Shown in pieces: positions 1 to 23,271 of a stretch of 23,271 nucleotides of DNA (position 1 is the first letter of the stretch; every line of letters begins with the position of its first letter). The DNA comes from a virus: the IMG/VR virus record IMGVR_UViG_3300010293_000039, positions 1 to 23,271 of that record; one strand, given 5' to 3'. The notes beneath the pieces were generated by a model, which was given only the letters and a program-made list of their open reading frames with translations, was not told the origin of the DNA and did not search any database. The position numbers and the translations under genes were made by a program.

Positions 1-95
1 ACCGGGATACACTGGCAGCTCGGAATATAGTGACCTTCGCATTGACCAAACTAGCTAATGGCTGGGGCGCAGCCAATAAAAAAGAGTCCACCTAA
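1..95 (+). pseudogene. tnpB: C-terminal end of a TnpB-family protein, cut by the window edge
   Basis: The frame starting at base 3 reads the last thirty residues of a TnpB RuvC-like nuclease and stops at TAA 93-95. It is almost identical to the end of the complete TnpB at 2664-3809: both contain RD-x-LAA-x-NIVTFALTKL and end GWGAANKKEST. Differences such as ILAAS versus TLAAR and LNVG versus LANG show that this is a second, diverged copy and not an assembly repeat. Only the final part is inside the window, so whether the gene upstream is intact cannot be seen; it is listed here as a partial gene. It is followed at once by the element right end (hairpin 89-100, then GATACGTCAGT at 100-110). 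Confidence 0.85.
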
Positions 96-110
96 GGGTG
101 ATACGTCAGT
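89..110 (+). repeat. Right end of the first TnpB element
   Basis: A short hairpin (CACC at 89-92, GGTG at 97-100) spans the tnpB stop codon and is followed by GATACGTCAGT, which is repeated exactly at 3817-3827 after the second tnpB copy. The loop and stem bases differ between copies but pairing is kept, as expected for an IS200/IS605-type right end. In this family the transcript across the tnpB 3' end and right end gives the guide (omega) RNA. The bases just after position 110 would then be the guide. Confidence 0.6.
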
Positions 111-755: not shown

Positions 756-764
756 TGAAACATG

Positions 765-838
765 CTTAGGCGGCTGGTCTCGAACCAGCAGTCTCCGGAT
801 TCAAAGTCCGGCGGATTTACCAATTCTCCTACGCCTAA
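765..838 (-). tRNA. tRNA-Gln (anticodon TTG)
   Basis: The acceptor stem pairs TTAGGCG with CGCCTAA (832-838 with 766-772). The anticodon stem CCGGA/TCCGG holds loop CTTTGAA, giving TTG. The T-arm is CTGGT-TCGAGAC-CAGC-like and the discriminator is G, as usual for Gln. CCA is not encoded. This is the promoter-distal end of the minus-strand tRNA cluster. Confidence 0.9.
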
Positions 839-844
839 ATATAC

Positions 845-918
845 TGGAGCTCCGTGCTGGAAGCGAGCCAGCGTTTCATCCTTACCAAGGATGCGTTCTA
901 CCACTGAACTAACAGAGC
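845..918 (-). tRNA. tRNA-Thr (anticodon GGT)
   Basis: Acceptor GCTCTGT pairs with ACGGAGC; the anticodon arm is CATCC-TTGGTAA-GGATG and the T-arm GCTGG-CTCGCTT-CCAGC. TCCA is encoded at the 3' end (845-848). Position 33 is a normal T, unlike the two other Thr tRNAs that follow. Confidence 0.9.
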
Positions 919-926
919 GTGTGTTC

Positions 927-1003
927 TGGAGCTGGCGGAGGGCCATGATCCCCCAACCTCGGCCTTACAGGGGCCTTGCTCTACCTACTTGAGCTACGCC
1001 AGC
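927..1003 (-). tRNA. tRNA-Thr (anticodon TGT), with unusual loops
   Basis: Acceptor GCTGGCG/CGCCAGC is perfect and TCCA is encoded. The anticodon arm is GGCC-CCTGTAA-GGCC, giving TGT but with C at position 33 instead of the near-universal T. The T-loop reads ATCATGG, without the usual T54 and A58. It is probably a real but divergent tRNA. Confidence 0.7.
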
Positions 1004-1004
1004 T

Positions 1005-1080
1005 TGGAGCCAGGAGAAAGGTTTGAACTTTCATCACCGGTCTTACGGGGACCGTGTTTTACCGGTTAAACTACCCTGGC
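1005..1080 (-). tRNA. tRNA-Thr (anticodon CGT)
   Basis: Acceptor GCCAGGG pairs with TCCTGGC, the T-arm is GAAAG-TTCAAAC-CTTTC, and TCCA is encoded. The anticodon arm CGGTC-CCCGTAA-GACCG gives CGT with C at position 33. With GGT and TGT before it, three adjacent Thr tRNAs cover all ACN codons. Confidence 0.85.
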
Positions 1081-1082
1081 AA

Positions 1083-1160
1083 TGGAAGGCCCGATGGGAC
1101 TCGAACCCACATATCATTCCGGTCCGTAGCCGGACGTTCATCCATTTGAACTACAGGCCC
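1083..1160 (-). tRNA. tRNA-Arg (anticodon ACG)
   Basis: The acceptor stem GGGCCTG/CGGGCCT closes with two wobble pairs. The anticodon arm is TCCGG-CTACGGA-CCGGA and the T-arm GTGGG-TTCGAGT-CCCAT. TCCA is encoded at 1083-1086. Confidence 0.9.
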
Positions 1161-1165
1161 ATATC

Positions 1166-1241
1166 TGGTGCCGTGTTTCCGAGTTGCACGGAGTTATCCG
1201 GTTCTTCAGACCGGCGCAATCACTGGACTTGCTCACACGGC
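1166..1241 (-). tRNA. tRNA-Phe (anticodon GAA)
   Basis: Acceptor GCCGTGT/ACACGGC with encoded ACCA. The D-arm is GCAA/TTGC and the anticodon arm CCGGT-CTGAAGA-ACCGG. The T-loop is TGCAACT, with G in place of T55. Confidence 0.9.
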
Positions 1242-1246
1242 GTATC

Positions 1247-1320
1247 TGGTCGGAAATGATTGAGTCGAACAATCTCCACATGGTCCCAGGCCACGGATGC
1301 AACCCCTACACCAATTTCCG
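1247..1320 (-). tRNA. tRNA-Pro (anticodon TGG)
   Basis: Acceptor CGGAAAT/ATTTCCG with encoded ACCA. The anticodon arm CGTGG-CCTGGGA-CCATG gives TGG with C at position 33. The T-loop is TTCGACT. Confidence 0.88.
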
Positions 1321-1330
1321 ATATGCTTAT

Positions 1331-1405
1331 TGGCTGCGTTGGCAGGTAACGATCCTGCTTATCCCATATTAACAGTATGGTGCCTGTCCTTTCGGCCACA
1401 ACGCA
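1331..1405 (-). tRNA. tRNA-Asn (anticodon GTT)
   Basis: Acceptor TGCGTTG/CAACGCA, discriminator G and encoded CCA. The anticodon arm is CCATA-CTGTTAA-TATGG. The T-stem is GCAGG/CCTGC with loop ATCGTTA, again an A at position 54. Confidence 0.88.
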
Positions 1406-1413
1406 TTATGTTC

Positions 1414-1503
1414 TGGAGAGATGAGGTGGATTTGGACCACTCGTCGGCCACTCCGCTTATTTTATGACAGCCGGGTTGCAGCCGGCCACGGAGAACTCAC
1501 CTC
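1414..1503 (-). tRNA. Long-variable-arm tRNA-like gene, anticodon unresolved
   Basis: The ends are clearly tRNA: acceptor GAGGTGA/TCATCTC, a T-arm with loop TCCAAAT, and encoded TCCA, total 90 nt. A variable stem CGG-AGTGG-CCG fits a Leu/Ser/Tyr-class tRNA. The middle does not fold normally. A strong hairpin GCCGG-CTGCAAC-CCGGC could show GCA, but it leaves no room for a D-arm. The expected anticodon position gives only CC(G)GCT/AGCGG around an 11-nt loop GTCATAAAATA. It may be a decayed tRNA, or one with an unusual decoding loop. Confidence 0.5.
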
Positions 1504-1510
1504 TTATGTT

Positions 1511-1595
1511 TGGTGGAAGTGCATGGAATCGAACCATGACGGTCATAGACGGCTGATTTACAGTCAGCGGAGCCCACCACCTGCTCAACACTTCC
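1511..1595 (-). tRNA. tRNA-Tyr (anticodon GTA)
   Basis: Acceptor GGAAGTG/CACTTCC with encoded ACCA, a long variable arm, anticodon arm GCTGA-CTGTAAA-TCAGC and T-arm CATGG-TTCGATT-CCATG. Confidence 0.92.
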
Positions 1596-1604
1596 ATTTA
1601 TTTT

Positions 1605-1690
1605 TGGTGGGAGACCAGGGAGTTGAACCCTGACGGTGCTAAACCACTGGTTCCTAAGACCAGCGCGGCTGCCAGTTACGCCAGTCTCCC
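1605..1690 (-). tRNA. tRNA-Leu (anticodon TAG)
   Basis: Acceptor GGGAGAC/GTCTCCC with encoded ACCA. The anticodon arm CTGGT-CTTAGGA-ACCAG and a long variable arm identify a Leu tRNA. The T-arm is CAGGG-TTCAACT-CCCTG. Confidence 0.92.
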
Positions 1691-1699
1691 ATGTTATCC

Positions 1700-1786
1700 T
1701 GGTAGCTGAGGAGAGACTCGAACTCTCACGGCCATAGGCCACTCGCTCTTGAGGCGAGCGCATCTGCCAAATTACGCCACTCAGCC
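1700..1786 (-). tRNA. tRNA-Leu (anticodon CAA)
   Basis: Acceptor GGCTGAG/CTCAGCT (first pair G-U) with encoded ACCA. The anticodon arm is CTCGC-CTCAAGA-GCGAG, the variable arm is long, and the T-arm is GAGAG-TTCGAGT-CTCTC. It is the promoter-proximal gene of this cluster. Confidence 0.92.
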
Positions 1787-1938: not shown

Positions 1939-2297
1939 TGGTGGACGTGGCCGGTTCTGCCCCGGCGTCCGTAAATACGTCATTACAGTTTCCACATGCT
2001 TCTCCTTTGCTTTGTTCTCGTTACCTGGAAACTCTCAAAGGCTAAGATTTTCCAGTAACATCCTTATGTTGTTTCGCCTTAGTCCCACTAAGGTCTGGTA
2101 CTAAAGCTATCTTACCTTAATGACACCATTAAAGAGCCCGGTAAGAAAGTCTCGATAATGATGTACGCCGTCTAGGCAGCGTAAGCGTAATCGTAGTTAT
2201 CTGCGATTATGGTTTTCTACTGGTTTTACGAGGCCTAGTAGACACCTCGACATGCACCTGTAATTTCAGTTATCTCCGTCGAAACTAATTCACGCCC
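1939..2297 (-). ncRNA. ssrA: Transfer-messenger RNA (tmRNA) encoded by the phage
   Basis: tmRNA rescues stalled ribosomes: charged with alanine and aided by SmpB, it adds a degradation tag. The 5' end carries the invariant TTCGACGG followed by GGTGCATGTCGAGG. The acceptor GGGCGTG (2297-2291) pairs with CACGTCC before an encoded ACCA ending at 1939. Pseudoknot PK1 is visible: CGAGG/CCTCG interleaved with TCTACT/AGTAGA. After ATAATC comes resume codon GCA (2204-2202), and the frame reads A-D-N-Y-D-Y-A-Y-A-A then TAG (2174-2172). The 3' domain has TTTACGGACGCCGG, close to the bacterial consensus. The T-loop is GGCAGAA and not TTCRANN, which is odd. Length is about 359 nt, normal for the family. 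The 5' end overlaps the stop of the basic-protein gene by 13 bases, so both come from one transcript. Confidence 0.95.
2172..2204 (-). other. tmRNA tag-peptide reading frame (ADNYDYAYAA)
   Basis: The ten-codon frame begins at resume codon GCA and ends with TAG. The tag ends AYAA; two terminal alanines are the feature recognised by ClpXP and related proteases in known tags. The xDNYxYAxAA shape resembles tags of some deltaproteobacteria and Chlorobi (from memory). Confidence 0.85.
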
Positions 2298-2449
2298 CCT
2301 TTCTTTTTGCTTTTTTTGGCCAGCATCTTTGCAATCTTACGGGCCACACGGGCTTTGTTCTTCTCCCGTCGTCCAGAGGCTCGGTACTGAGCACAATGTG
2401 TTTTGTGACGGCCAATTTTTTTGCCGCCACCACTGGCTGCTTTACTCAT
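2285..2449 (-). CDS. Small basic Lys/Arg-rich protein, 54 aa, unknown function
   Basis: The frame starts at ATG 2449 and ends TAG 2287-2285. It has a strong ribosome site (AGGGGGTGAT, five bases before the ATG). The protein begins MSKAASGGGKKIGRHK and is about 40 percent Lys and Arg, with a central RRxKNKARVARKIAK helix-like stretch. This suggests binding to nucleic acid or ribosomes, but I do not recognise the family. Its last four codons (GGVN and part of the preceding codon) and stop lie at the tmRNA 5' end. It is the first sizeable gene after the promoter at 2526-2554. Ribosome-related function would fit the linkage to tmRNA, but this is only inference. Confidence 0.7.
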   Translation of the reverse strand: MSKAASGGGKKIGRHKTHCAQYRASGRREKNKARVARKIAKMLAKKSKKKGGVN

Positions 2450-2525: not shown

Positions 2526-2554
2526 ATTGTAGCATATTGCAATAAATCTGTCAA
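2526..2554 (-). promoter_or_regulatory. Early-type promoter for the basic protein and tmRNA
   Basis: -35 TTGACA (2554-2549), 17-bp spacer ending TGC, -10 TACAAT (2531-2526), read leftward. The extended -10 TGN is shared with every other promoter of this class in the window. Confidence 0.85.
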
Positions 2555-2663: not shown

Positions 2664-3809
2664 ATGCTCCGAGCGATAAAGATAAGGTTATATCCGACCA
2701 AAACACAGGCCAGTTCACTTGACCATACATTTGATTGTTGCCGATACATCTATAATTGGGCCTTGGAGAAGAAGATAGCCTACTACACCGAACATAAAAG
2801 GGGGTTAAGTCGGGTTACTATTTCCTCAATGCTCACTGAACATAAGAAGGAAAAGGAATGGCTTAAGGAAGTCAATGCCCAATGTCTCCAGCAGGTGTTG
2901 GTTGACCTGGAATCAGCCTTTAGCCATTTCTTCCGGAAGAACAATGGTTTCCCCAAGTTCAAATCCAAAAAGCAAGCTAAACGGACCTTTCGATGTCCAC
3001 AGAGTATTGATGTGGTTGGTAAAACTCTTACCCTGCCAAAATTGGGTAAGGTTCGGTTCAAGGACCGGTTCAAATTCCAGGAACATTATGACCTTCGGAA
3101 TGCAACCATATCAAGGTCTTCCACTGGTAAATACTACGCCTGCATCCTATATGAAAATGGATTGGTTGAACCAGAACCAAAACCGGTTTCCAGTGAAACC
3201 ATGGTAGGTATTGACCTAGGCCTTACCCACTATGCAACCCTTTCTAACGGTACCAAAATAGACAATCCAAGGAACTTAGCCAAATCACTCAAACACCTGG
3301 CGGTGGCTCAACAGAACCTTAGTCGGAGGACTAAGGCCAGTAAGAACTACAATAAACAAAGAACCAAAGTGGCTCGGATATATAAAAAGGTCAATAACAG
3401 AAGAAAGGACTTCCTACATAAGCTGGTAAACAGCCTGGTTGAGAACCAAGGCCACGGCTCGTTTGCCATTGAGGACCTCTCCATTAGGTCAATGATGCAG
3501 AATGGTCAGACCTATATGTCCAGGTCAATAGGGGATACATCCTGGTACACTTTTCGGCAAATACTGGAATATAAGACCAAGGAAGCCGGTAAACAAGTGA
3601 TTACCATCGGCCGATTTGATGCTTCCTCCAAGACCTGTGTCTGTGGGTTAGTGAACCAAGAATTGGAATTAGGGGATAGATTATGGACCTGCTCCGCCTG
3701 TGATGCAACCCATGACAGGGATATCCTGGCAGCTAGCAACATAGTGACCTTTGCATTGACCAAGCTGAATGTTGGCTGGGGCGCAGCCAATAAAAAAGAG
3801 TCCACCTAA
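2664..3809 (+). CDS. tnpB: TnpB-family RNA-guided nuclease (IS200/IS605 type), complete
   Basis: A 381-residue TnpB, normal length for the family. It has the N-terminal KIRLYPT segment and a RuvC-like nuclease with D184 (GIDLGLTHYATL), E270 (IEDLSIRSMM) and D351 (THDRDILAASNI). A zinc ribbon is formed by C325/C327 and C343/C346. All catalytic residues are present, so it should be active. TnpB uses an RNA derived from the element's right end to cut matching DNA; this favours retention of the element, and some copies have been adopted for regulation. No TnpA transposase is visible, so this is a stand-alone copy that would need TnpA from elsewhere to move. A late promoter lies upstream; the right end with a hairpin follows the stop. 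A second copy ends at base 95. Confidence 0.95.
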   Translation: MLRAIKIRLYPTKTQASSLDHTFDCCRYIYNWALEKKIAYYTEHKRGLSRVTISSMLTEHKKEKEWLKEVNAQCLQQVLVDLESAFSHFFRKNNGFPKFKSKKQAKRTFRCPQSIDVVGKTLTLPKLGKVRFKDRFKFQEHYDLRNATISRSSTGKYYACILYENGLVEPEPKPVSSETMVGIDLGLTHYATLSNGTKIDNPRNLAKSLKHLAVAQQNLSRRTKASKNYNKQRTKVARIYKKVNNRRKDFLHKLVNSLVENQGHGSFAIEDLSIRSMMQNGQTYMSRSIGDTSWYTFRQILEYKTKEAGKQVITIGRFDASSKTCVCGLVNQELELGDRLWTCSACDATHDRDILAASNIVTFALTKLNVGWGAANKKEST

Positions 3810-3827
3810 TCAAGTGGATACGTCAGT
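3801..3827 (+). repeat. Right end of the second TnpB element
   Basis: Hairpin TCCAC/GTGGA (3801-3805 with 3814-3818) overlaps the tnpB stop codon and runs into GATACGTCAGT (3817-3827), identical to the end of the first copy. In TnpB systems this is the scaffold end of the omega RNA, and the roughly 16-20 nt that follow (from 3828) would be the guide. Confidence 0.65.
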
Positions 3828-3854
3828 TATATCACATCTCATGTCATTTGTCAA
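3826..3854 (-). promoter_or_regulatory. Early-type promoter facing leftward, abutting the TnpB element
   Basis: -35 TTGACA (3854-3849), 17-bp spacer ending TGA, -10 TATAAC (3831-3826). The last two bases of the -10 are the final GT of the TnpB right end on the other strand. Transcription from it would run antisense through tnpB. It probably served the basic-protein/tmRNA unit before the element inserted. Confidence 0.7.
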
Positions 3855-3863
3855 GCTTTATTT

Positions 3864-4463
3864 TCACCCATGATACATTTTATCCAGCTTGTCATAAAGC
3901 AGGTTCATATGTTTCACAGGTAGCTCTTTAACCAACTGATACATATGAACATTGTCCTCATCTTTACAGGTCTCAATGGTCCAAATTTTCTGGTAGGTAC
4001 CTTTCTTGTATCCATGGTCCTGGCGGAACCTATTCAGGACCTGCTTGCCAATGTACAGTTTATACAGGTCAGGTACATCCATACCCATGCGCTCACATAA
4101 CATTAAGAATGTGTCGATGGGAAATCCACACCTGGTAATGGCCTGTGAAGCAATGAATTCCAGGACTTCCACATCCGTTTTTCCAGGCCAGGCGCAATCA
4201 TTGATATGTGGTGTTATGTTCCGCTGTAGGTACCAGCTCATGCCAAAGTGGAAAATATCCACCAACTCAATTTGGAGGTTCAATAGGTCCATGGGTTTAT
4301 TGGCCCACCACTTCCAATTCATATATCCCATGGCCTCCCCGCATTCCACCCAGACCGCCCTCAACCAGTCCAGGTTCAAATCGCGCCAATGGGGCCCCTT
4401 GATCCTGATGTTCAGCTCCTCTTGAAGGGCGAACATATGATCTATCATTTCATGTTCTTTCAT
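3864..4463 (-). CDS. Dimeric all-alpha dUTPase (dUTP diphosphatase)
   Basis: A 199-residue protein of the dimeric dUTPase (MazG-like all-alpha) family, which hydrolyses dUTP to dUMP and keeps uracil out of phage DNA. Motifs include the metal-binding helix VECGEAMGYMNWKWW, then IELVDIFHFGMSW, and the late signature LNRFRQDHGYKKGTYQKIW followed by EDNVHM. Length and motif order are normal. It is the last gene of a leftward operon, with its start overlapping the preceding stop (ATGA at 4460-4463), so translation is probably coupled. No hairpin terminator is seen after it. Confidence 0.9.
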   Translation of the reverse strand: MKEHEMIDHMFALQEELNIRIKGPHWRDLNLDWLRAVWVECGEAMGYMNWKWWANKPMDLLNLQIELVDIFHFGMSWYLQRNITPHINDCAWPGKTDVEVLEFIASQAITRCGFPIDTFLMLCERMGMDVPDLYKLYIGKQVLNRFRQDHGYKKGTYQKIWTIETCKDEDNVHMYQLVKELPVKHMNLLYDKLDKMYHG

Positions 4464-7596: not shown

Positions 7597-7675
7597 TGGC
7601 GATCCGTGTGAGATTCGGACTCACGATCTCTGGCGTGACAAGCCAGTGCTTTAAGCCGGACTAAGCTAACGGACC
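7597..7675 (-). tRNA. tRNA-Asp (anticodon GTC)
   Basis: Acceptor GGTCCGT/ACGGATC, discriminator G with encoded CCA. The anticodon arm is CTGGC-TTGTCAC-GCCAG and the T-arm GTGAG-TCCGAAT-CTCAC. The D-loop is somewhat long. Confidence 0.9.
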
Positions 7676-8163: not shown

Positions 8164-8622
8164 TTGGAAATCGATACCAAGAAGCTTATCAAAGACATAA
8201 AAGACACTGCCAATGAACAAGGGTCTCTATTGGCTGAGCTAAAAGCCAAGTACCCCATCACCGATTTCGTCTCCTATGATGAATTTAACCTCCAAGACAG
8301 GCTCAGCATACTTCCCATGAAGATAGTTGAATACCAGGAATACCATATCAAAGAAAAGGCCATGCTGGAAGCCTTAGAGGATCAACGGGTAGATATAGCC
8401 GGACAGCTTTATGAACACTATCGGTTCTCTGCCAATGAGAAACTGGACAAGTATGAGATCAAGGAATACTATATACCACGTCACCCCTCAATACAATCCA
8501 TGGATAAGATTATCAGGCGCCAAAGGATCACGGTGGAATATATGGAAGGATGCCTGAAGGCCCTGGATAAAATGTCTTGGGGAATCAAGGATTTCATCAA
8601 GACGGCAAGAGGTGCCTTGTGA
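8164..8622 (+). CDS. uvsY: UvsY-like recombination mediator
   Basis: 152 residues, close to T4 UvsY (137). UvsY helps load the UvsX recombinase onto gp32-covered single-stranded DNA. The C-terminal half follows the T4 layout: a basic segment (KLDKYEIKEYYIPRHPSIQSMDKIIRRQRITVEYM), then a helix ending WGIKDFIKTAR, comparable to the T4 end FAIKHIQDMRA. Similarity is weak but supported by the adjacent uvsW, as in T4. The start is TTG 8164, seven bases after AGGAG; no ATG fits. It ends GTGA, where the GTG starts uvsW. Confidence 0.7.
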   Translation: MEIDTKKLIKDIKDTANEQGSLLAELKAKYPITDFVSYDEFNLQDRLSILPMKIVEYQEYHIKEKAMLEALEDQRVDIAGQLYEHYRFSANEKLDKYEIKEYYIPRHPSIQSMDKIIRRQRITVEYMEGCLKALDKMSWGIKDFIKTARGAL

Positions 8623-9314
8623 TCCGGCTTGAGCTACACGACCCACTTCACATCAGGATAGACACGGAAGACAGGTCCATACTGATGGGCCTGAAGGAAC
8701 ACTTTAGTGCGATGGTGCCTGGCGCCAGGTTCATGCCACAGTATGGAATAGGAGGATGGGATGGTAAGGTCTGCATGTTCAATAGTGGGTCCAGAACACT
8801 ACCATATGGTCTCCTAACAGATTTCCTCAGGTATATGAAAAAAGAATATCCGCTGGAAGAACTGGGTATCTCACCGGACATAGCCTCCCTGTTCAAATGC
8901 ATAGAAGATCCCAAGATTACCGCGGAGCTGGCCCTTACGCCACGTCCTTATCAGCTTGATTGCATAACCACAGCTTTACGCTACGGCCGTGGTCTGATCA
9001 AGTCCTCCGTTGCATCCGGCAAGAGCCTTATCATGGCATACATACTCAGTGAGCTATTCCACGCTAAAAAGATCAAAAAAGCTCTCATTATCGTGCCTAC
9101 TACAAATCTATGCGTGCAGCTTGAATCGGATTTTATAGAGTATGGACTGGGGTTACCAGTGGATGTAATATATTCGGGGTCGGAAACATCTTCTAAGGTG
9201 TGTGTTACATTTGGTGATGGCTCAAAAAAACTCTATAATAGGAATGATGTTGTGGAATCAAAGCGTGGCAAAATCCTTGCCAAGGAGTTAACCTCCACGG
9301 ATGAGATTCTATAA
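8619..9314 (+). pseudogene. uvsW: UvsW-like helicase, N-terminal fragment (uvsW-N)
   Basis: Starts at GTG 8619, overlapping the uvsY stop. T4 UvsW is a 3'-5' helicase that migrates forks and Holliday junctions and unwinds R-loops. The N-domain matches it (LHIRIDTEDRSILMGLKEHFS, then GGWDGKVCMFN and LPYGLLTDF). Walker A ASGKS and motif Ia LIIVPTTNL follow. After VIYSGSETSSK the similarity ends and a 38-residue tail begins VCVTFGDGSKKLYNRND and ends KILAKELTSTDEIL, then TAA. This tail resembles part of an intein Hint domain. Motif II onward is encoded separately at 10243-11271. The product alone cannot hydrolyse ATP, so function requires assembly with the other fragment. Confidence 0.85.
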
Positions 9315-9317
9315 ATA
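9310..9317 (+). promoter_or_regulatory. Late promoter TATAAATA for the endonuclease inside uvsW
   Basis: Exact T4 late motif, 33 nt before the endonuclease ATG. It contains the TAA stop of uvsW-N. Confidence 0.6.
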
Positions 9318-9350
9318 ATTCCAAACACACACAACAAAGAGGTAAGAAAT

Positions 9351-10286
9351 ATGACACGTAATGAAATGGTACCTTACTGGAACACTGTATTGAATAGCTA
9401 TAATAGCGATCTCACTGTTTTATCATATGATGGTCAAGTTATAAAACTGAGTAATGGTGTTATTCTATCAGGAAAGCTTGAAATACAAAGCTTTCGGAGA
9501 CGTTTATCCAAACATCCAACACTAATTGATGAAATATACAGCACTGATACCAGTATCTCCACGTCCGCGCGAAAGCGAATAAAAAGTTTGGGATGCAGAC
9601 AAGGAGGGCTTGCAGCACAAAGGCTATATCCAGAATTGAGAAAAAATATGAATACCGGTATACCATGGAATAAGGGAACCGTTGGTATGGTGAATATTTG
9701 GAATAAAGGTCTGACAAAAGAGATAGATGACCGGGTGCTAAAACATTTCTCACAAGGTAGGTTAGGTGACAAAAACCCCGCCTTTGGTAAACCAGTGTCC
9801 GATGAGCTGAAAGAACAAAAATCGAACCACATGAAACATCTTATTTTGGAGGGTCTCTTTACGCCACCAGTTCATAATTCCTTGACACGTAAGAATTTAG
9901 AGTTCAATGGCAAAAAATACCGGTCGAGTTGGGAAGTGTTATTTGCGTTTCTTCACCCAGACTTTTTGTATGAAAAGGTTAGGATACCATATAAGGATTC
10001 TGGTAAGCCAAAGGTGCATATTACAGACTTCTTGGACCCAACAAATAACATAATCTATGAAATTAAGCCGGAGTGTAATAGGAAAAAGATCACCACAAAG
10101 CTAAGGGAATCAATAAAATGGTGTAAAAAGAACGGTTACACATACGTACTCATCACGGAAAACGAATTATTTGGTAACGTAGATACAAACATATTTGAAA
10201 ATTTTGAACCCCATGTGAGAAGGTTATTGACAGGAGCGTATAATGCATTTCAAAAAAATCAAAAACATCGAAATTGTAAAACATGA
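9351..10286 (+). CDS. Homing endonuclease, PD-(D/E)XK type, inserted in uvsW
   Basis: 311 residues behind the ribosome site AGAGGT. The middle has NTGIPWNKGT, NIWNKGLTKEIDDR and LGDKNPAFGKPVSDELKEQKS, NUMOD-like DNA-binding repeats typical of phage homing enzymes. The C-terminal nuclease has KYRSSWEVLFAFL (E195), VHITDFLD (D226) and IIYEIKP (E237, K239), a PD-(D/E)XK core. Such enzymes cut intact target genes so that repair copies the element across. It separates the two halves of uvsW and overlaps the uvsW-C start by 44 bases in another frame. Base composition is more AT-rich than uvsW, suggesting recent transfer. Confidence 0.85.
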   Translation: MTRNEMVPYWNTVLNSYNSDLTVLSYDGQVIKLSNGVILSGKLEIQSFRRRLSKHPTLIDEIYSTDTSISTSARKRIKSLGCRQGGLAAQRLYPELRKNMNTGIPWNKGTVGMVNIWNKGLTKEIDDRVLKHFSQGRLGDKNPAFGKPVSDELKEQKSNHMKHLILEGLFTPPVHNSLTRKNLEFNGKKYRSSWEVLFAFLHPDFLYEKVRIPYKDSGKPKVHITDFLDPTNNIIYEIKPECNRKKITTKLRESIKWCKKNGYTYVLITENELFGNVDTNIFENFEPHVRRLLTGAYNAFQKNQKHRNCKT

Positions 10287-11271
10287 GAGTCCAATAGTAA
10301 TATCAACATGGCAGTCTATATATGCTGATCTTCCACAAAACACATCATTATTGAGTTCCATGGATTGTGTATTGGTGGATGAAGCACATGTCTCCAGGGC
10401 AAGATCATTACAAAAGATCCTCTCCAAGTCAACCAATGCGTCGGTCCGGCTTGGTTTCACCGGTACATTGCCTATACCAAAACTTGAAATGTGGCAAATA
10501 CAGGGCTATCTTGGCCCAGTGCTGAAGGAATACACGGCTTCCGACTTGGCTAAGCTTGGCTATGTGTCCCACTGTACTGTCCATTCAATTTCGGTAAAAT
10601 ACGCATCCAGGATCACTGGCGAATATAACGAGATCAAGGATGCTGTGTTCCAAAATGAGTACCGGCTTAGGCTAATCAAGGACATCTTGAGCCAATGTGA
10701 TTCTAATATATTGGTCCTGGTGGGGAAAATAGAAAAAGAGGGCCATTTGCTCAAGGAATACTTGGACGCTAACAATGATATGGGTAAGGAAGTCGTTTTT
10801 ATATGGGGTGATACCAAAACTAGTGAAAGGGATCATTGGCGGGCTGAATTGGAGAAGCGTAAAAATATCATCTTGATTGCCACTTACCCAATATTCAGCA
10901 TGGGTGTTAATGTACCTAGTCTCGCCTATATTATATTGGCAAGCCCTTTCAAGAGCAATGTTAGAGTGTTACAGTCCGTAGGCAGGGCTCTTAGGATACA
11001 TGCCGACAAGATAGGCGGAGCGCATATATATGATATTATTGACCTGGTCAAGTTCCTAAATAAGCACGGTGATACCAGGCTCCGGTATTTTATCCGGGAG
11101 GGATTTCACATCATGGATTATAGTATGGTTGAAGGGAAGGATACCACCTTCTTGACAAACGGAAATCTATGTGCTATGGTACCAAATAAAACTGTGGAGG
11201 CTGAAAATGTCAAAAAAGAGCATAATCAGAGTTCAAATGATGAACCGGTTGATGAAGGGTCTAAAGTGTAG
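10243..11271 (+). CDS. uvsW: UvsW-like helicase, C-terminal fragment (uvsW-C)
   Basis: 342 residues. Starts at ATG 10243, seven bases after AGGAG inside the endonuclease gene, so it has its own ribosome site. After a 13-residue start (MHFKKIKNIEIVK) it matches UvsW from just before motif II: PIVISTWQS, VLVDEAHVSRA (DEAH), LGFTGTL (motif III), LVLVGKIEKEG, NIILIATYPIFSMGVNVPSL (motif V) and VLQSVGRALRIH (motif VI). All motifs after Ia are intact, with no extra stops, which argues that the fragment is still under selection. The start MHFKKIKNIEI resembles the opening of phage C-inteins, but the HN terminal motif is absent. Confidence 0.88.
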   Translation: MHFKKIKNIEIVKHESPIVISTWQSIYADLPQNTSLLSSMDCVLVDEAHVSRARSLQKILSKSTNASVRLGFTGTLPIPKLEMWQIQGYLGPVLKEYTASDLAKLGYVSHCTVHSISVKYASRITGEYNEIKDAVFQNEYRLRLIKDILSQCDSNILVLVGKIEKEGHLLKEYLDANNDMGKEVVFIWGDTKTSERDHWRAELEKRKNIILIATYPIFSMGVNVPSLAYIILASPFKSNVRVLQSVGRALRIHADKIGGAHIYDIIDLVKFLNKHGDTRLRYFIREGFHIMDYSMVEGKDTTFLTNGNLCAMVPNKTVEAENVKKEHNQSSNDEPVDEGSKV

Positions 11272-19752: not shown

Positions 19753-19827
19753 GCGGGGTTAGCTTAATGATAAAGCGGTTGACCGCCAGTCAATCAGATA
19801 CCAGTTTGAGTCTGGTGCCCCGCTCCA
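19753..19827 (+). tRNA. tRNA-Gly (anticodon GCC)
   Basis: Acceptor GCGGGGT/GCCCCGC with encoded TCCA. The anticodon arm GTTGA-CCGCCAG-TCAAT gives GCC with C at position 33. The T-arm is ACCAG-TTTGAGT-CTGGT. Confidence 0.87.
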
Positions 19828-19835
19828 AAACATCA

Positions 19836-19910
19836 GTGTTCGTGGTCTAATACTAAGGCTCCACCCTTCCAAGGTGTAAGATGCCGGTGGAACTCCGGCC
19901 GGACGCTCCA
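19836..19910 (+). tRNA. tRNA-Gly (anticodon TCC)
   Basis: Acceptor GTGTTCG/CGGACGC with encoded TCCA. The anticodon arm has CACC-CTTCCAA-GGTG, giving TCC. The T-arm is GCCGG-TGGAACT-CCGGC, with G at 55 and 56. Confidence 0.87.
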
Positions 19911-21512: not shown

Positions 21513-21806
21513 TTGACCAAAGAACAAGCTGTTGCATTGGCCGAGTCAAAATTTTGGGAGAAGATGAGCCAGAAAGACATAGCTCGGTTCCAAATCAACC
21601 AGAAATTGCTCTGTATGCCATTTTCTGTGTTCCACGAAGCGGTTGAAAAAACAATCGGTCGGCCTGTGTGGACACATGAGTTTGGTGTAAATGCGGATGG
21701 ATTACGACGTGAAGTAAATGAAGGTGGACCAGCACCGACGTTTCAGGAAATCATAGAAATGATTCCGGCAGACAAACGGATTATACTCATTAAAGAGGTC
21801 AAATGA
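21513..21806 (+). CDS. Conserved phage protein of unknown function, 97 aa
   Basis: Start TTG 21513, nine bases after AAAGGA; GTG 21495 in frame lacks a ribosome site. The segment DIARFQINQKLLCMPFSVFHEAVEKTIGRPVWTHEFG matches a motif (LCMPF-x-FHxAVExxxGRPVWTHEF) I recall from many phage hypothetical proteins. It overlaps the ligase start by ATGA. Co-expression with ligase is likely; role unknown. Confidence 0.72.
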   Translation: MTKEQAVALAESKFWEKMSQKDIARFQINQKLLCMPFSVFHEAVEKTIGRPVWTHEFGVNADGLRREVNEGGPAPTFQEIIEMIPADKRIILIKEVK

Positions 21807-22843
21807 TGAACAAAGACACCACAATACGCCAACTGAAACAGTGGGATAAACAATACCATACCCTTGGTAAGACTTCGGTATCTGATACTCAATATGACAG
21901 GCTAAAAACCGAAGCCAAAACTCTCTGGCCCGACCATCCATACTTCCAGACAGTTGGTTCCAGCACGGCCGGTGAGAAGGTCAAGTTGCCATATGTGCTT
22001 GGCTCATTGGATAAGGTAAAGGTTGATACAGTCAAGGCCTGGCTTGATTCCCACAAGGGTCCATTCCAGGTCATGTCTAAACTTGATGGAATATCATTTT
22101 ATATAGAATACAATAATGGTGTTGTTGTCCGCGGAGCCACTAGAGGTGATGGCTCATATGGTCAAGATATTAGTGATAAACTAAAAGTGATTTGTCCGGA
22201 AATCAACACAAATGATAAAATTATATTCCGTGGTGAGTTGGTATTAAAGAAGGACGTTGATATAACGAAGCTTGGCTATAAGAACCGACGTAATGGTGTG
22301 GTTGGTATTACCAACCGGAAGGGGTTAGAACACGTCGAATTAATTAGTCCTGTATTTTATGAAGTTATAGTACGCAATGGAAAGTCAATTACAGCATATG
22401 AGGCTGATAAAATTTTGCAAACCATTGGTTTATCTACACCAAAGTCTCGGGTATTTGAGAACGCCGGTAATATGTCAGAATTTCTTGTGGATAAATTGGT
22501 TGAATGGAAAACCGATGAGGAGTACGATATAGATGGCTTAGTTATTGTGGTATATAATTCATTACGCGAAAACATCATGATTCCAGAAAATAAAGTTGCG
22601 TTCAAATGCAACACCGAAGCTATAGAGGCAAAGGTTGTTAGTGTTGAATGGAATACCAGCCGGTTAGGTAGAGTTATACCAACTGTATTACTCGAACCAA
22701 TAGATATTGGTGGCGTAACCATTTCAAAAGCAACGGGGTTTAACGCCTTATTTATTAAGGAAAATAAAATTCAACAAGACACCATAGTGACCATAATTCG
22801 TGCGGGAGAAGTTATACCCCATATAGTGGATATATTATCGTAG
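21803..22843 (+). CDS. ligA: NAD+-dependent DNA ligase (LigA-like), probably C-terminally truncated
   Basis: 346 residues. It seals nicks using NAD+. An Ia-like start (DTQYDRLKTEAKTLWPDHPYFQTVGS) precedes the active-site lysine K93 in MSKLDG, then TRGDGSYGQDIS, FRGELVL, NRRNGVVG, EYDIDGLVI and AFKCN. The OB domain follows (EWNTSRLGRVIPTVLLEPIDIGGVTISKATGFN) up to IIRAGEVIPHIVDILS. Bacterial LigA continues with a zinc finger, HhH and BRCT; here the frame stops right after the OB fold. Its last nine bases overlap the convergent homing endonuclease gene at 22835, which may have cut off the rest. The catalytic core is complete, so it may still work. T4 itself uses an ATP-dependent ligase. Confidence 0.9.
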   Translation: MMNKDTTIRQLKQWDKQYHTLGKTSVSDTQYDRLKTEAKTLWPDHPYFQTVGSSTAGEKVKLPYVLGSLDKVKVDTVKAWLDSHKGPFQVMSKLDGISFYIEYNNGVVVRGATRGDGSYGQDISDKLKVICPEINTNDKIIFRGELVLKKDVDITKLGYKNRRNGVVGITNRKGLEHVELISPVFYEVIVRNGKSITAYEADKILQTIGLSTPKSRVFENAGNMSEFLVDKLVEWKTDEEYDIDGLVIVVYNSLRENIMIPENKVAFKCNTEAIEAKVVSVEWNTSRLGRVIPTVLLEPIDIGGVTISKATGFNALFIKENKIQQDTIVTIIRAGEVIPHIVDILS

Positions 22844-23271
22844 AAAATTATCAATGAGTGACCAATCTTTGTTTTGTAACCATTGATCCTCATGAATAAC
22901 CAATAGATCAATGCCTTTTATTCGACATTGTTCTTGTTTTACCATATCACAAGATTGTCTTTCCGGTAAGCTATGCCAATAAGAGCCATTATATTCAATA
23001 GCTTTATTAGTATCCGGTAACCATATGTCTAGTTCAAGCTTTCGTTTGGTTAATGGATTAGTAATTTGTTTTTTTTATCATTGGGTTTCACTATACCGGT
23101 ATATATTTTTTTAACATATTCAAGTATTTCTTTTTCTGGTTTTGAGTATGTTTGGCATTCCCAACATATTTGGCATCTTTTACCCCTTTGGAAATTACTA
23201 AGTCTGGTGTTGTAAACATGGCCTTTTGGACATTTGACCTTTAGAGAGGAATTGACATTTTTTATAGACAC
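22835..23271 (-). pseudogene. Vsr-like homing endonuclease with a frameshift, cut by the window edge
   Basis: The first frame (from the window end to TAA 23050) reads a zinc knuckle KCPKGHVYNTRLSNFQRGKRCQIC then SKPEKEILEYVKKIYTGIVKPNDKK. After an A-run of eight (23076-23069) the protein continues in another frame: QITNPLTKRKLELDIWLPDTNKAIEYNGSYWHSLPE, then GIDLLVIHEDQW, ending at TAA 22837-22835. This LELDIxxP-x-AIEYNGxYWH order is that of Vsr/PD-(D/E)XK-like homing endonucleases. One more A in the run would restore a single frame. The gene runs against the ligase and overlaps its end. Confidence 0.8.

Follow-up and report, generated by a model that had tools for sequence, protein, structure and literature searches.

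A one-piece tmRNA gene in a T4-like phage contig carries a T-loop of the permuted tmRNA type

The RNA gene at 1939-2297 raises two questions: whether a phage-borne gene of this kind encodes a working tmRNA, and how a tmRNA in standard gene order came to carry an elbow of the permuted (two-piece) type. The window, that is, the whole stretch of DNA analysed, is 23,271 bases long and forms a virus record of its own in IMG/VR. An initial annotation of its sequence had proposed a complete tmRNA at 1939-2297, and cmscan identified a one-piece tmRNA gene (ssrA) at exactly these positions on the minus strand, matching RF00023 with 138.9 bits (E 1e-54), well over the cut-off of 47. The match spans model positions 1-374 of 374, which is the full length, and the score was identical when the sub-region was searched. 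All the elements listed in that annotation, namely the 5' blocks (TTTCGACGG and GGTGCATG), PK1, the tag ADNYDYAYAA and a tRNA-like 3' end with ACCA, were found in the sequence. The features of the gene and of its neighbourhood are:

1939..2297, minus strand: one-piece (standard-order) tmRNA gene, ssrA, matched by RF00023 over its full length
2291..2297, minus strand: 5' strand of the acceptor stem, GGGCGTG, pairing with 1943-1949 and including G3:U70 (6 Watson-Crick pairs and 1 G-U of 7)
2278..2290, minus strand: D-loop segment AATTAGTTTCGAC, in which, by sequence comparison, the usual GG has A as its first base
2216..2249, minus strand: PK1, CGAGG/CCTCG and TCTACT/AGTAGA (11 of 11 pairs Watson-Crick)
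2172..2204, minus strand: tag reading frame ADNYDYAYAA followed by TAG, with ATAATC just before it
2124..2163, minus strand: outer helix of PK2 (7 Watson-Crick pairs and 1 G-U of 8, by eye)
2076..2107, minus strand: PK3 helix (7 Watson-Crick pairs and 1 G-U of 8, by eye)
2020..2059, minus strand: PK4 helices (11 of 11 pairs Watson-Crick, by eye)
1950..1966, minus strand: T-arm GCCGG-GGCAGAA-CCGGC, with a T-loop (1955-1961) of the type seen in alpha tmRNAs, which are permuted and two-piece
1939..1949, minus strand: 3' strand of the acceptor stem, CACGTCC, and encoded ACCA (ACCA at 1939-1942)
2285..2449, minus strand: Lys/Arg-rich ORF of 54 amino acids that has a ribosome-binding-site-like sequence and ends in a stop codon formed by tmRNA bases 11-13
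2526..2554, minus strand: promoter-like site TTGACA-17-TACAAT with TG ahead of the second hexamer (11 of 12 matches)
764..1786, minus strand: ten tRNA genes downstream of the tmRNA, called by ARAGORN

The gene has the standard order, with the 5' acceptor strand at 2297 and the 3' strand at 1943, and not the acceptor-piece-first order of permuted genes. The alanine-acceptor features G3:U70, discriminator A and CCA are present (GGGCGTG/CACGTCC and ACCA), and the tag reading frame with its resume region stands after PK1, as a standard tmRNA requires; the resume codon starts at 2204, the stop ends at 2172 and the codons read GCA GAT AAC TAC GAT TAC GCT TAC GCT GCC TAG. Nine helices were scored, giving 57 pairs (54 Watson-Crick and 3 G-U), counts that describe the structure and are no test of it, since the helices were chosen by eye as complementary runs and the distal part of H2 was left out. 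By our count, 28 positions in Rfam's alignment carry the mark for a non-standard pair, each such pair counting twice. ARAGORN, which had been suggested as a second check, called 18 tRNAs and no tmRNA in the window and no tmRNA on the 66.7-kb contig described below, probably because of the non-canonical T-loop; a census of phage tmRNAs made by ARAGORN alone can miss some.

A second IMG/VR record, IMGVR_UViG_3300025115_000007 (66,707 bases), includes window positions 1-23266 with one mismatch and the same tmRNA, which sits inside this phage contig and not at its end. The flanks hold phage genes, with a TnpB-like transposase gene adjoining, and no host DNA was seen in them. Genes near the tmRNA in the window encode two clamp-loader proteins (gp44- and gp62-like) and UvsW, besides an NAD-dependent ligase and a small protein that binds DNA, and the 66.7-kb contig also encodes a DnaB-like helicase, a DNA polymerase and a ribonucleotide reductase; the clamp-loader, UvsW, helicase and polymerase genes, of T4 type, support the T4-like setting put forward by the initial annotation. 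Neither a megablast of the window nor a search with the tmRNA region matched any of 50,697 phage records. The gp44-like protein is 35.1% identical to the best of the 15 phage matches listed and 39% identical to the best of 79 other viral loci, indicating, with the empty megablast, a phage far from known phages and T4-like in its replication genes. The search for a phage SmpB gene, also suggested beforehand, yielded none in the window or in the rest of the 66.7-kb contig, which is probably incomplete.

TnpB-like (IS605 OrfB) sequence was noted at 2664-3809, beside the tmRNA, at window positions 1-110, where a second copy has its tail, and at G001 27276-28418; in DNA the two copies are about 79% alike. 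As a host marker the TnpB gene was uninformative (36% identity in the D. piger genome). The UvsW helicase is split at 8577-11271 by an endonuclease-like ORF of 311 amino acids (phrog_15427; TnsA-like and Tox-REase-7 folds in Pfam), and a group I intron was rejected here as Rfam gave no match. The NAD-dependent ligase (21803-23271; G001 2722-4173) seems to be interrupted by an ORF with repeated Cys-containing units, by reading possibly a homing endonuclease, and at G001 55703-58981 a ribonucleotide reductase frame has an intein-like insert between PHROG matches 43-207 and 616-1091.

Upstream, the 54-amino-acid ORF runs into the 5' end of the tmRNA, an arrangement with a parallel in the smpB-ssrA genes of Carsonella (PMC4131195). 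This ORF could be placed in no known family: searches of PHROGs, Pfam and the phage records came back empty, and the sole viral contig to match it was the 66.7-kb record itself. The promoter-like site would serve one transcript of this ORF, the tmRNA and the tRNAs; the consensus match alone is no proof of a promoter, since a scan of 600-2700 found 4 sites and shuffled sequences average 2.3. Between the tmRNA and tRNA-Leu (1787-1938) we noticed an inverted repeat, GAACGAACCT/AGGTTCGTTC, by reading possibly a processing hairpin, and no tRNA was called in the gap at 1406-1510.

The tag is not foreign to bacteria. Scanning 84,980 species genomes for tags ending in YAYAA returned 87 stretches, a few of them not tmRNA-looking, which ruled out this ending as a phage invention; among the 80 of 87 for which titles were obtained, Desulfovibrio-type bacteria, Armatimonadetes and Firmicutes/Bacillota are frequent. 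Of the 87, 11 bacterial loci have tags ending in DYDYAYAA; they are titled Desulfovibrio, Mailhella, Desulfovibrionaceae, Deltaproteobacteria and, for one metagenome-assembled genome, Betaproteobacteria. The phage tag ADNYDYAYAA resembles the Desulfovibrionaceae tags (ANNDYDYAYAA) and shares YDYAYAA with those 11 alone among the 92 loci examined, and for this reason a Desulfovibrionaceae-like host is a fair guess and no more. The phage tmRNA is 0.67-0.71 identical to bacterial tmRNAs in the meaningful rows of the best 15 (rows of 25 columns or fewer being meaningless). Against the tmRNA of D. piger (L305), an alignment read by eye shows both bases altered in four pairs, the fourth and sixth of the acceptor and the second and third of the T-stem, and this apparent keeping of pairing despite sequence change we count for function. 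In the class of D. piger, 140 of 149 genomes have a standard tmRNA.

The elbow, whose abnormal T-loop the initial annotation had missed, departs from this standard picture. The T-loop is GGCAGAA in place of TTCRANT, which is usual in one-piece tmRNAs, and the D-loop has TTAG in place of the usual TTGG. None of the 121 other one-piece tmRNAs collected has a GGCRG T-loop, 120 being of the TTC(A/G)A type and one TTTAATT, in a set that does not sample such tmRNAs evenly: the YAYAA-tag scan contributed 72, a class search 26 and pattern hits on viral contigs 23. Likewise, the T-arm pattern occurs in none of the genomes scanned from the class (297) and the phylum (395) to which D. piger, like the guessed host, belongs. 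TTCRANT is not defining for tmRNA as such, because permuted alpha tmRNAs lack it, and the idea that the elbow is unique in biology was withdrawn once GGCRG was found in permuted tmRNAs. Decay or an assembly error was also rejected as the source of the T-loop: the second IMG/VR record, perhaps not an independent sample, has identical bases, and the loop type recurs with paired T-stems.

Non-canonical T-loops are also frequent in the tRNAs of this phage, at 6/18 (845-918, 927-1003, 1331-1405, 7597-7675, 19753-19827 and 19836-19910; for example ATCATGG, ATCGTTA and TGGAACT), compared with 2/72 in stretches from other phages that were picked partly for holding tRNAs or a tmRNA, one low-pairing row being dropped (one-sided Fisher p 0.0006), and with 0/13 at bacterial loci. 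Both Gly tRNAs of the phage are also without GG in the D-loop.

The RF01849 consensus T-loop is GGCgGUA, and the GGCAGAA of the window is of the same GGCRG type. A scan of viral contigs with the T-arm pattern returned at least 120 stretches; in all 120 listed the T-stem is paired at 5/5 positions, a pairing that the pattern itself imposes at one position, and all 12 that were run through Rfam are permuted tmRNAs by the alpha, beta or general model. Judged on these sequences the T-loop is not random decay, GGCRG being the RF01849 consensus and the stems being intact. An acceptor partner lies downstream, as in permuted genes, in 108 of the 120 (under stricter criteria 106, 105 of them used for comparison); those left out by the first rule are the mini candidates L370 and L378, with only a tRNA-like domain (TLD), L363, L367, L412, L419 and L429, which end 0-215 bases downstream, and L362, L398, L431, L436 and L458, with no acceptor partner within 2.5 kb. 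One viral permuted tmRNA, L389, has a T-arm identical to that of the window at 21/21 bases, the only such case among the 120 listed. The D-loop segment matches at 12/13 in 4 of the 105 permuted forms (L346, L371, L416 and L440), whereas the best one-piece match is 11/13, reached by 14 of 121, D. piger included; this evidence is modest, since likeness overlaps widely (means 10.0/13 in permuted and 9.3/13 in one-piece forms). An acceptor beginning with GGGC was seen in 13 of the 105 permuted tmRNAs and in none of the 121 one-piece ones. The likeness of the permuted set in the T-loop arises by construction, the set having been gathered through the T-loop pattern, and GGCRG is not universal in permuted forms, the permuted tmRNA of phage Mosig having TGCAACT. 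The permuted families gave no match over cut-off at the locus; the partial matches to RF04321 (36.3 and 19.9 bits, cut-off 47) were rejected as proof of permuted origin, since one-piece controls score as well or better (L142 45.2, L095 37.4 bits). Together, the T-arm, D-loop and GGGC comparisons point to a standard-order tmRNA with a tRNA-like domain of the permuted type.

A tmRNA acts through trimming by RNase P, charging by alanyl-tRNA synthetase (AlaRS) via G3:U70, entry into stalled ribosomes and translation of the tag (PMC3968760, PMC8363625). SmpB is described as binding the elbow and contacting A15, U17, G19 and A334 (PMC8363625), and its binding and the function of the tmRNA are reported to depend on contacts between the D- and T-loops (PMC3968760, citing Barends 2002). 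In our own alignment mapping, TTTCGAC and GGAC preserve the bases corresponding to U17, G19 and A334, and the position of A15 has U, as in D. piger. The positions corresponding to G13, U341, U342 and A345 hold different bases in this mapping, and the sites of m5U and pseudouridine are altered too. Since a whole group of bacteria has this loop type as its tmRNA consensus (RF01849), the phage tmRNA probably works with the SmpB of the host. The reading that we favour, at a probability of roughly 0.6, is that the gene encodes a working one-piece tmRNA, carried by a T4-like phage whose host is probably Desulfovibrionaceae-like. Transcription of the ORF, the tmRNA and the tRNAs would start at the promoter-like site at 2554-2526 with the RNA polymerase of the host, both the transcription and its timing being what we infer; host enzymes would then trim the tmRNA, host AlaRS would charge it through G3:U70, and host SmpB would bring it to stalled ribosomes, where it would add a host-like tag ending in YAYAA and free the ribosome.

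The alternative elbow, with its GGCRG T-loop, may have been acquired from a permuted phage tmRNA through recombination, or may have arisen convergently. The first of these, a chimera of a four-pseudoknot one-piece body with the acceptor, D-loop and T-arm of a permuted phage tmRNA, is a tentative proposal, and the re-permuted mitochondrial tmRNA of Jakoba libera (PMC11915505) offers a precedent for return from the permuted order. It is also quite possible that no exchange took place and that the one-piece tmRNA of the phage evolved this elbow by itself: T-arms are short, the permuted set was chosen by its T-loop, the D-loop is just two bases off that of D. piger, and the T-loops of the phage tRNAs drift too, which allows for plain relaxation of the tmRNA T-loop. 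The complete identity of the T-arm with that of L389 and the GGGC acceptor start, found on the permuted side alone, speak against convergence.

The same looseness of the phage tRNAs could mean that the tmRNA was captured and has come under relaxed selection, a spare RNA gene in a tRNA array and unimportant to the phage. The search of related phages proposed by the initial annotation bears on this, and it did find a second one-piece tmRNA, on contig G010, but that was the only standard-form tmRNA over the RF00023 cut-off among 36 related contigs (fragments longer than 10 kb from the 79 gp44-bearing relatives, L006-L084), a search in which RF00023 could miss permuted forms. The gene on G010 (L221, L334), a distant T4-like contig, has the tag GNDQPTYAYAA, a canonical T-loop and a 3' end reading CCACAA rather than CCACCA. 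We consider a passenger gene unlikely, given that some acceptor and T-stem pairs differ from those of D. piger in both bases and that the changed loop is of a recurrent type, not a random one.

An RNA that binds host SmpB (or AlaRS or EF-Tu), works poorly and so dampens trans-translation by the host during infection would fit the elbow, abnormal as it is for a one-piece tmRNA. Inhibition of tmRNA, perhaps through titration of SmpB, is reported for the TLD-only form of mycobacteriophage DS6A (PMC4131195, PMC11915505), and L370 and L378 have TLD-only mini candidates with the same type of T-loop. Such a decoy would need neither a tag frame nor four pseudoknots, yet both are present here, and we regard it as improbable. 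The mini candidates (L370 3612-3682, plus strand, 71 nt; L378 21-101, minus strand, 81 nt, near the contig end) have a 7-bp acceptor, a D-loop-like segment, a GGCAGTA T-loop and CCA, and, like DS6A's, are without an mRNA-like part; they match alpha_tmRNA weakly, at 28.2 and 25.4 bits (cut-off 50).

That the gene is a piece of host DNA restoring host ssrA after integration is very improbable: ssrA is a common integration site (PMC11590407, PMC12656738) and many of the pattern-found tmRNAs of viral contigs are in records that, in our reading, have isolate-genome-like IMG-style numbers, but this tmRNA lies within a phage contig and not at its end, the phage has T4-like replication genes, and the genomes searched from the guessed host's class and phylum lack the T-arm pattern.

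If the functional phage tmRNA is indeed a chimera, its elbow would be an exchangeable module traded among phages, the alternative D/T elbow would work outside the two-piece state and escape modification at U54/U55 (the TrmA/TruB sites), and the phage tmRNA may be handled differently from that of the host. A one-piece tmRNA with a two-piece elbow lets one ask whether SmpB-dependent rescue needs the canonical T-loop and its modifications, and whether tmRNA domains are exchanged among phages. In the literature searched we found no description of a one-piece/two-piece tmRNA chimera and no report testing the effect of a full-length phage tmRNA for its phage. As far as our searches reach, a one-piece tmRNA with a mixed elbow is new, and the 84,269 standard forms in the tmRNA database (PMC11915505) may already include one.

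A phage-borne tmRNA as such is of an already known kind. The initial annotation took phage tmRNAs to be reported in few lineages, a rarity at odds with the tmRNAs reported in 402 of 18,146 phage genomes, the T4-like myophages Melnitz and Mosig included (PMC9004378); the tmRNA database holds 79 unique phage sequences (PMC11915505), and others are described in Streptomyces BE1 phages (PMC5764925) and in Bradyrhizobium phages (PMC12656738). The permuted tmRNA of Mosig was also found in this analysis. The marine phages Melnitz and Mosig share T4-like replication genes and a phage-borne tmRNA with our phage, but theirs is permuted and accompanied by a glutamine riboswitch (PMC9004378), whereas the tmRNA of the window is in one piece beside a tRNA array. 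Streptomyces phage Peebs (BE1), Bacillus phage G and contig G010 carry one-piece tmRNAs, near tRNAs in Peebs and G, and all three have canonical T-loops, unlike the window. The TLD-only tmRNA of DS6A (PMC4131195) shares a phage-borne tRNA-like domain, to which the tmRNA of the window adds a whole mRNA-like domain. The permuted families RF01849 and RF04321 resemble it in the GGCRG-type T-loop, in the T-arm of L389 and in the 12/13 D-loop matches, and differ from it in that the tmRNA of the window has the standard order and PK3/PK4-type helices in its body. With the standard tmRNA of RF00023 it has in common the gene order, the acceptor with G3:U70, PK1, the tag frame, PK2-PK4 and H2, and it is set apart by its T-loop, by its D-loop and by its location in a phage.
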